From Polynucleobacter meluiroseus (GTDB lineage Bacteria > Pseudomonadota > Gammaproteobacteria > Burkholderiales > Burkholderiaceae), in the NCBI GenBank assembly GCA_945947155.1, contig CAMEXM010000017.1:1-34168 (forward strand): a stretch of DNA of 34,168 bases, read 5' to 3'. The translations under genes and the position numbers were made by a program. How positions within the stretch are numbered: position 1 is the stretch's first letter; each line of letters starts with the position of its first letter. A model generated the notes under the pieces. That model was not told where the DNA came from. It was given only the letters and a program-made list of their open reading frames with translations, and did not search any database. This document shows, piece by piece, positions 32,863-34,168 of the stretch.

Positions 32863-32938
32863 GGCCTGGTAGCTCAGTCGGTAGAGCAGAGGATTGAAAA
32901 TCCTTGTGTCGGTGGTTCGATTCCGCCCCGGGCCACCA
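32863..32938 (+). tRNA. tRNA-Phe (GAA), CCA encoded
   Basis: 76 nt cloverleaf: acceptor GGCCTGG/CCGGGCC, anticodon loop TTGAAAA (GAA), T arm GGTGG-TTCGATT-CCGCC, 3' ACCA. Confidence 0.97.
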
Positions 32939-32940
32939 AG
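32913..32940 (+). repeat. Direct repeat copy 1 (tRNA-Phe 3' end, attachment-site-like)
   Basis: TGGTTCGATTCCGCCCCGGGCCACCAAG, 28 bp identical to 33603-33630. Confidence 0.95.
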
Positions 32941-32945
32941 AAACC

Positions 32946-32970
32946 AAAACCACCTTCGGGTGGTTTTTTT
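32946..32970 (+). terminator. Rho-independent terminator after tRNA-Phe
   Basis: AAAACCACC-TTCG-GGTGGTTTTTTT hairpin with T tract. Confidence 0.92.
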
Positions 32971-32995
32971 AATTAAGGTGAGTTAGTATCGGATT

Positions 32996-33583
32996 ATGAA
33001 AAAACTAATCATTTCTTTGGTCCTAGCTTCGCTCTCAATTGACTCATTTGCTTTTGAGATCTTTGCTTTAGGCACCAGCAATACCAACTGTAAAGGCGCG
33101 GGTCAGGCTTATACGATAAAACTTAATGAGCTATTGGCACAAGAAAAAATCAATGCCACCGTAATAAATGCCGGCGTAGATGGCGATCGACCGGCTTTTA
33201 TGATGACTAGATTAGAGCAAGGCTTAAAAGCCAATCCTAATATTAAGATAGTGATTTTTGAACCAGGCCCAAATGAGAGAAATAAGAGTTTTAATCTTGG
33301 TCCTTCAGCGCAGATTTTGTCATTCCTTCAAAAAATTAACATGCCAACTATCTATGTATCTCATGTATTGCTTCAAAGTAATGAAGAAGCACAAGAATTT
33401 GCGACAAAATATGGCGCCTACTATTATGGCCATTGGGTAAAGGATGTTCCAACGAACGCCACAAACCGACAATATGATCAGCCTGGTGCTGCAGGCCATA
33501 TGACAGTTGTGGGCTGTCAATTATGGGCAAACAATATGTTTCCTTTTATTAAAGAAGTGATTAAGGCTAGAAACATCCAATAA
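32996..33583 (+). CDS. Secreted SGNH/GDSL-hydrolase-like protein
   Basis: 195 aa; signal peptide MKKLIISLVLASLSIDSFA; FALGTSNT (block I-like), NAGVDGD (block II-like), FEPGPNE (block III-like), PGAAGHMTVVGCQLWA (His block-like). Confidence 0.6.
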   Translation: MKKLIISLVLASLSIDSFAFEIFALGTSNTNCKGAGQAYTIKLNELLAQEKINATVINAGVDGDRPAFMMTRLEQGLKANPNIKIVIFEPGPNERNKSFNLGPSAQILSFLQKINMPTIYVSHVLLQSNEEAQEFATKYGAYYYGHWVKDVPTNATNRQYDQPGAAGHMTVVGCQLWANNMFPFIKEVIKARNIQ

Positions 33584-33602
33584 GATTTAACGTCTTTTGA
33601 CC

Positions 33603-33630
33603 TGGTTCGATTCCGCCCCGGGCCACCAAG
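33603..33630 (+). repeat. Direct repeat copy 2 (partial tRNA-Phe 3' end remnant)
   Basis: 28 bp identical to 32913-32940; no 5' tRNA half upstream. Confidence 0.95.
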
Positions 33631-33637
33631 ATTCTAT

Positions 33638-33660
33638 AAACCACCTTCGGGTGGTTTTTT
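33638..33660 (+). terminator. Duplicated terminator hairpin after the second repeat
   Basis: AAACCACC-TTCG-GGTGGTTTTTT, same as the tRNA-Phe terminator. Confidence 0.88.
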
Positions 33661-33719: not shown

Positions 33720-34166
33720 ATGAAATTAACTAGAGCCATCCACTCTGATGTTCCCGAACTCGTTGAGTTGTTAAAGATCCTCTTTGAGCAAGAGGCAGAG
33801 TTCGAGCCTAACTCAGAAGCCCAAAGAAAAGCCCTTAGCAAAATCATTCTTGATCCAAAGATTGGCATCATTTTGGTTGCTAGAGATGATGAAAAAATAT
33901 TAGGAATGATTAACCTGCTGTTTACTGAATCTACTGCTCTAGGCTCCAAAGTCGCCAATCTTGAAGATATGGTTGTTCTAGCCAAATCTAGAGGGGAAGG
34001 TATCGGCTCCAAGTTAATTGACTATGCGATTAGCGAAGCCAAAAAAGAGGGCTGTAAACGAATTACCTTATTAACTGATATTGAAAATACCAAGTCCCAG
34101 TCTTTTTATCAAAAGAAAGGCTTTGTGAAATCCAAGATGACGCCCTATAGGCTTTTGCTGGATTAG
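33720..34166 (+). CDS. GNAT family N-acetyltransferase
   Basis: 148 aa; LEDMVVLAKSRGEGIGSKLIDYAISEAKKEGCKRITLLTD acetyl-CoA motif; FYQKKGF. Confidence 0.9.
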   Translation: MKLTRAIHSDVPELVELLKILFEQEAEFEPNSEAQRKALSKIILDPKIGIILVARDDEKILGMINLLFTESTALGSKVANLEDMVVLAKSRGEGIGSKLIDYAISEAKKEGCKRITLLTDIENTKSQSFYQKKGFVKSKMTPYRLLLD

Positions 34167-34168
34167 AC

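Follow-up and report, generated by a model that had tools for sequence, protein, structure and literature searches.

A cassette array anchored at tRNA-Phe most probably accounts for the end of the 34,168-nt stretch of DNA analysed here (the window), one whole contig (G000:C17) of a Polynucleobacter draft genome. Specifically, the window would hold the tRNA-proximal end of an array built by serial capture of circular cassettes through a short core sequence, a reading to which we assign a probability of roughly 80%. The two genes that follow the tRNA, a GDSL-like ORF and a GNAT acetyltransferase gene, are both cassettes that recur in other species, and the genomes of the genus display the anatomy of such cassettes, their orientation, their polarity along the array, the ownership of their terminators, and their transfer between species. 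A broader proposal falls a little short of even odds: a genus-wide, integron-like capture system with the essential tRNA-Phe as its anchor, in which integrase-less cassettes endowed with a dedicated, more palindromic half-site and a tRNA-protecting terminator would owe their mobility to larger phage-like elements of the same array acting in trans, and which would have a parallel array at tRNA-Lys sharing at least one cargo gene.

The tRNA-Phe locus and its two cassettes

ARAGORN places a tRNA-Phe(GAA) gene at 32863-32938 on the plus strand, which is the sole full copy in the genome and the attB/attI-like anchor of the array. Its 3' end, TGGTTCGATTCCGCCCCGGGCCACCA, is present twice in the window, at 32913-32938 and 33603-33628, and with the adjoining AG the exact repeat reaches 28 bp (32913-32940 and 33603-33630), for which shuffles give an expectation of 0 matches; the extended direct repeat covers 62 nt at 77% identity, with 690 bp from start to start. 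A CCACC-TTCG-GGTGG-T(n) hairpin stands 3' of both copies, preceded by the diverged spacers AAACCA and ATTCTAT, and the interval between the copies contains a single ORF (32996-33583, 195 aa) and no detectable integrase. The first-pass annotation had reported the exact repeat 690 bp downstream, the terminator after each copy, and the lone ORF devoid of an integrase, and on all these points it is confirmed. No copies of the repeat beyond these two were found in the window's assembly (1.87 Mb, 107 contigs, 93% complete).

Within the repeat, the 21-bp core CGATTCCGCCCCGGGCCACCA occupies 32918-32938 (copy 1) and 33608-33628 (copy 2) on the plus strand; it is the conservation block common to the 155 congener copies described below, and the crossover presumably falls inside it. 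Copy 1 is followed by a spacer and terminator (32941-32970, plus strand) that form the left end of the GDSL cassette and at present serve as the terminator of tRNA-Phe. Copy 2, read as the tRNA-Phe 3' end that predates the insertion of cassette 1, is followed by the spacer and terminator (33629-33660, plus strand) that form the left end of the GNAT cassette.

The protein encoded in cassette 1 (32996-33583, plus strand; 195 aa) has a hydrophobic, signal-like segment at its N-terminus, and its assignment as SGNH/GDSL-like is unproven. Pfam returns no match for the window's ORF, and the 70%-identical homologue of P. campilacus matches PF13472 (GDSL lipase) at 6.5e-6 with 27.2 bits, not reaching the family cut-off of 32.9. 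Ser28 (LGTSNT), the GPNE and HM motifs, and His168 are invariant across 12 homologous sequences, and we read Ser28 and His168 as the putative catalytic residues. The GDSL gene has cores on both flanks in the window and in two congeners (G048, G122), and homologues in G072, G066, and P. campilacus have the right-hand core only, directly downstream; the stop codon of the GDSL homologue overlaps the half-site that precedes this core. Relatives with at least 55% identity occur in 10 of the 150 other congeners searched, a minority at odds with the vertical inheritance of the same ORF and repeat in all relatives, which the first-pass annotation had named as a refuting case.

The cargo of cassette 2 (33720-34166, plus strand) is a 148-aa GNAT acetyltransferase with 90.5% amino acid identity to a gene of the congener G012, in which it forms, between two cores, a complete single-gene cassette of 583 bp. 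The two sequences stay colinear until the window ends (GGATTAGAC), past which G012 continues with ATCCTAGGCCCTGGTTCGATTCCGCCCCGGGCCACCA, the remaining half-site and core, and then with a terminator. The contig therefore breaks at the next repeated site, and its final 9 bp (34160-34168, plus strand) are, by colinearity with G012, the first 9 bp of the next predicted half-site. Of the three options in the first-pass annotation, that of an array running on past the window, with the GNAT gene as its next module, is the right one.

A genus-wide array behind tRNA-Phe

A tRNA-Phe gene was found in 150 of the 151 congeners searched, and the array was surveyed over 18-58 kb downstream of it in 40 closed congener genomes, counting as a core copy each match to the 21-bp core with at most 4 mismatches and using the opposite strand as a control. 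Between 1 and 13 further core copies lie 3' of tRNA-Phe in 32 of the 40 genomes; all 155 are in the orientation of the tRNA, and none was found on the opposite strand of the same genomes. Array-rich genomes reach 10-14 cores when that of the tRNA is counted. Each genome has 0-13 cassettes in this position, with contents that vary by species, so that the comparison of related genomes that the first-pass annotation had recommended reveals different cassettes behind the same tRNA; such variation between species at one tRNA gene is a trait that the array shares with additive flexible genomic islands. Cassettes measure 260-17,076 bp (median 1,228), hold a single ORF of at least 70 aa in 69 of 155 cases, and direct their longest ORF away from the tRNA in 117 of 148; the arrays end at the start of a conserved core gene block. 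The cargo includes bicarbonate and sulfate transporters, carbonic anhydrase, acetyltransferases, porins, and BrnT toxins. BrnT-type toxins make up 4 of 111 representative cargo proteins, and in integrons toxin-antitoxin pairs stabilise the arrays.

The core of tRNA-Phe itself is perfect in 40 of the 40 closed genomes, and the farther a copy lies from the tRNA, the more mismatches its core tends to contain (Spearman 0.46; permutation within genomes, p = 1e-4, the lowest value that the test allows). Such a rise is expected if the newest cassettes enter beside the tRNA, and it orders the array with its newest cassette at the anchor, as in integrons and in CALIN.

The half-site

The sequence 5' of the core separates two types of site: in type A it is a true copy of the tRNA over ~22 nt or more, and in type B it is specific to cassettes, with the consensus TAGGRTnAGGCATCCTCGGCCCTGGT(T). 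Among the 156 non-tRNA copies, the window's included, 131 belong to type B and 25 to type A. Direct reading of the sequences places GGCCCTGG opposite CCCGGGCC across the core of type B sites, which are thereby more palindromic than the tRNA itself. The right half-site of cassette 1 (33581-33607, plus strand; consensus with the final T) overlaps the stop codon of the 195-aa ORF, and a weight matrix built from congener half-sites, with the window left out, ranks the 26 nt 5' of the second core 1st of 68,284 window positions and gives the tRNA copy a negative score.

When 61 Polynucleobacter genomes and 338 genomes from 24 further genera in the same family were scanned for a 36-nt type B pattern with at most 3 mismatches, it appeared in 31 of the former and in none of the latter. 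A 34-nt version is present in 113 of 186 congeners, and its reversed control has no match in the same 186. The pairing AGGAT..ATCCT, which resembles an anticodon stem, was considered as a hairpin and discarded, as its score is barely above shuffles and many sites read TAGAGT..ATCCT. No attC-like fold 5' of the core is supported, the mean hairpin score being 3.94 against 3.50 for shuffled sequences (maximum of 20 shuffle means, 3.74). Short palindromes (e.g., GTCCTTTAAAAGGAC and TGTCGTTTAAAACGACA) lie ~90-100 nt to the right and ~30-45 nt to the left of the core in many cassettes, and could be arm-type or regulatory sites.

Terminators and the mobile unit

A terminator-like hairpin with a T run lies 3' of tRNA-Phe in 37 of the 40 congeners and 3' of 129 of the 155 downstream core copies, compared with 118 of 4000 random positions, and several unrelated terminator sequences are found among the cassettes. 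When homologous cassettes from different genomes are paired, the type of terminator at the left end is concordant in 66 of 74 pairs, and that after the right-hand core in 35 of 92, where the type frequencies predict ~35% by chance. The mobile unit is therefore spacer-terminator-gene-half-site-core, and the order gene-att-terminator put forward in the first-pass annotation is rejected, given that each terminator accompanies the cassette on its right. Left ends are swapped in the remaining 8 of the 74 pairs; recombination outside the core therefore happens too.

These features fit a simple sequence of events. A cassette is a short non-replicating unit that opens with a spacer and terminator on the left, continues in most cases with one gene that has its own start, and closes with the right half-site and the 21-bp core. 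In circular form, it would recombine core-to-core with tRNA-Phe, and the insertion would re-form the 3' half of the tRNA gene, whose transcript would now stop at the terminator of the incoming cassette, pushing the previous tRNA end and its terminator downstream. Repeated insertion would generate an array in which the newest cassettes are the closest to the tRNA.

Mobility between species

Proteins encoded in cassettes can be much more similar between two species than their core proteins are. Between G110 and G014, they reach 94-100% identity, against ~78% for core proteins; between G078 and G024, the figures are 97% and 61%, and in both pairs the near-identical cassettes occupy different positions in the array. 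One ~670-bp cassette is the 1st in three species, the 3rd in a fourth, and the 6th in a fifth, and has unrelated neighbours at its different positions. The cassettes common to the close relatives G031 and G106 follow one another in a single order, interspersed with others.

A candidate recombinase

Cassettes are probably joined by a tyrosine recombinase, and the sequences point to a family of 418-454-aa enzymes (I424), encoded by large elements with the same core, as the probable helper acting in trans. Elements of 8-17 kb are inserted in the arrays of G014, G026, G072 (two), G110, and G131, all with type A ends, and encode a 418-454-aa tyrosine recombinase together with a 188-232-aa PF00589 protein reduced to the catalytic domain. 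The full-length enzyme is found by PHROGs and is missed or weakly matched by Pfam; that of G026 matches phrog_1 at 2e-31 and escapes Pfam. The small protein was set aside as the cassette integrase since it always adjoins the full-length one, which is therefore the preferred candidate. I424 homologues occur in 92 of 186 congeners and, among the copies with at least 60% identity and tRNA-Phe on the same contig, 12 of 14 lie within ~30 kb downstream of the tRNA by their coordinates.

The window's genome, in an assembly that is ~93% complete, yielded no I424-family integrase; it encodes three PF00589 proteins, none on the window's contig, and neither the PF00589 nor the I424 search revealed an IntI-type integrase next to an attI-like site. 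The integrase in trans evoked by the first-pass annotation survives as a likely helper arrangement suggested by the same-core elements of other genomes, with no such enzyme detected in this one. A model with one shared enzyme has to contend with the ends of the elements, which are of type A in the integrase-bearing ones and mostly of type B in the cassettes (131 of 156). A viral vehicle was considered and rejected, as the 31-nt site has no exact match in viral contigs and I424 has no relatives in phage records; plasmid records hold I424 relatives at 24-33% identity only.

Further observations concern the large elements and the surroundings of tRNA-Phe. The elements of G026 (L070) and G131 (L099) encode two or three tyrosine recombinases each, the former also an AAA ATPase resembling a phage clamp loader and a DUF6641 protein, the latter a type I restriction system. 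An integrase ~46% identical to that of the arrays lies 0.3-1.2 kb 5' of tRNA-Phe and points away from it in G027, G018, G090, G060, G034, and G089, and the 5' end of tRNA-Phe is duplicated in G009 and G100; the tRNA is apparently a target on its 5' side too. Copies of the core or of a long tRNA-Phe 3' portion are located hundreds of kb from the tRNA in G081 (1.49-1.50 Mb), G098 (1.98-2.0 Mb), G059, G145, and G137, some of them near integrases, and may represent secondary sites or array pieces that have moved.

A second array at tRNA-Lys

In the window's genome, the 3' end of tRNA-Lys(UUU) is also duplicated (L161, G000:C45:233-308; L170, G000:C91:415-442), with a terminator after each copy, and several congeners likewise have tRNA-Lys 3' ends in duplicate. 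In G033 (L171), the tRNA-Lys island contains a GDSL paralogue, the second GDSL copy of that genome, which is closed by a duplicated tRNA-Lys(UUU) 3' end followed by a terminator of its own; a ~30%-identical integrase stands beside this paralogue. The duplications, their terminators, and the GDSL paralogue thus reproduce the same grammar at a second tRNA.

Alternative explanations

Homologous recombination, for instance after natural transformation, might assemble such arrays with no site-specific recombinase, by using the core and terminator as short homologies. These offer roughly 50-60 bp of common sequence, the window's genome lacks a candidate integrase, and both the internal gains and losses in the colinear arrays of G031 and G106 and the left-end swaps fit some recombination of this kind. 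As an explanation of the arrays, it is nonetheless improbable, because the junctions fall at the 21-bp core, a conserved cassette-specific half-site lies outside it, decay is polar from the tRNA, integrases reside in elements with the same core, and one cassette can be found at different positions among unrelated neighbours.

The two remaining explanations regard the window's repeat as an isolated event. That a single integrative island in tRNA-Phe decayed to one ORF and an attR, as the first-pass annotation had proposed, is very unlikely and no longer needed: in other species the same ORF makes up a cassette by itself, between intact flanking sites, the neighbouring GNAT gene belongs to a second complete cassette type, and the small size that might suggest decay is normal for cassettes, even though the enclosed single ORF, the missing integrase, and a slightly diverged right half-site would suit a relic. 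Almost certainly wrong is the idea that tRNA-Phe was once duplicated in tandem around an ORF and that the second copy is what remains of it; the core is indeed a tRNA 3' end, CCA included, but what precedes the second core is the best half-site match of the window instead of tRNA sequence, and in congeners the additional copies number as many as 13 and are separated by different genes. Serial capture of cassettes at tRNA-Phe is thus retained as the preferred reading. Through it, small and streamlined freshwater bacteria would be able to exchange individual metabolic genes across species with no need of plasmids or large islands, and the only copy of an essential tRNA gene could be a busy hotspot and still keep the end of its transcript.

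Comparison with known systems

A search of the open-access literature, with subscription papers largely outside its scope, found no paper joining Polynucleobacter and tRNA-Phe. In the additive flexible genomic islands described in Alteromonas, Ca. Actinomarinales, and Methylophilaceae (fGI-2), a tRNA is reported as the target of successive cassettes, all of which terminate in a direct repeat of its 3' part (PMC4119200, PMC7771536, PMC10872708); the Methylophilaceae account gives a 20-nt tRNA-Lys repeat in varying number and islands from 330 bp to 42 kb (PMC10872708). The Polynucleobacter array resembles them as a tRNA-anchored series of cassettes with tRNA 3' direct repeats, and is set apart from their published descriptions, as far as these go, by a half-site distinct from the tRNA, a cassette-borne terminator, numerous units of a single gene, and as many as 14 cores at one locus. 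Tycheposons, described in Prochlorococcus and reported in Methylophilaceae, span 4-200 kb and carry their own recombinase (PMC10872708). According to that account, they share with the array the targeting of tRNAs, the tyrosine recombinases of their elements, a variable cargo, and streamlined aquatic hosts, but most Polynucleobacter cassettes measure 0.3-3 kb and have no recombinase, and the window's cassette, with its 690 bp and no recombinase, falls outside that definition. Integrative elements and ICEs at tRNA 3' ends likewise duplicate this end and reconstitute the tRNA, whereas the window's cassette has neither an integrase nor transfer genes and belongs to a serial array of single genes.

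Cassette islands anchored at tRNAs are therefore already known, and what is added here is a defined unit, often of a single gene, with a travelling terminator and a cassette-specific half-site, together with the polarity of the array and a candidate helper. The 'additive island' would thus become a testable mechanism: its sites and its unit are defined, the order in which cassettes arrive is predicted, and an enzyme is proposed. The closest functional likeness is to integrons, with which the array shares its order, its mostly single-gene and same-strand cassettes behind one anchor, and the position of the newest cassette next to that anchor, and to CALIN, the integrase-less cassette arrays (PMC11389934), as most Polynucleobacter arrays lack their own integrase. 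Unlike in integrons, the anchor is a tRNA gene whose 3' end is the site, the sites have no supported attC-like fold, a terminator rather than a promoter faces the incoming cassette, and the candidate recombinase is a phage-type integrase of 418-454 aa. The Polynucleobacter array works like an integron or a CALIN without being one.
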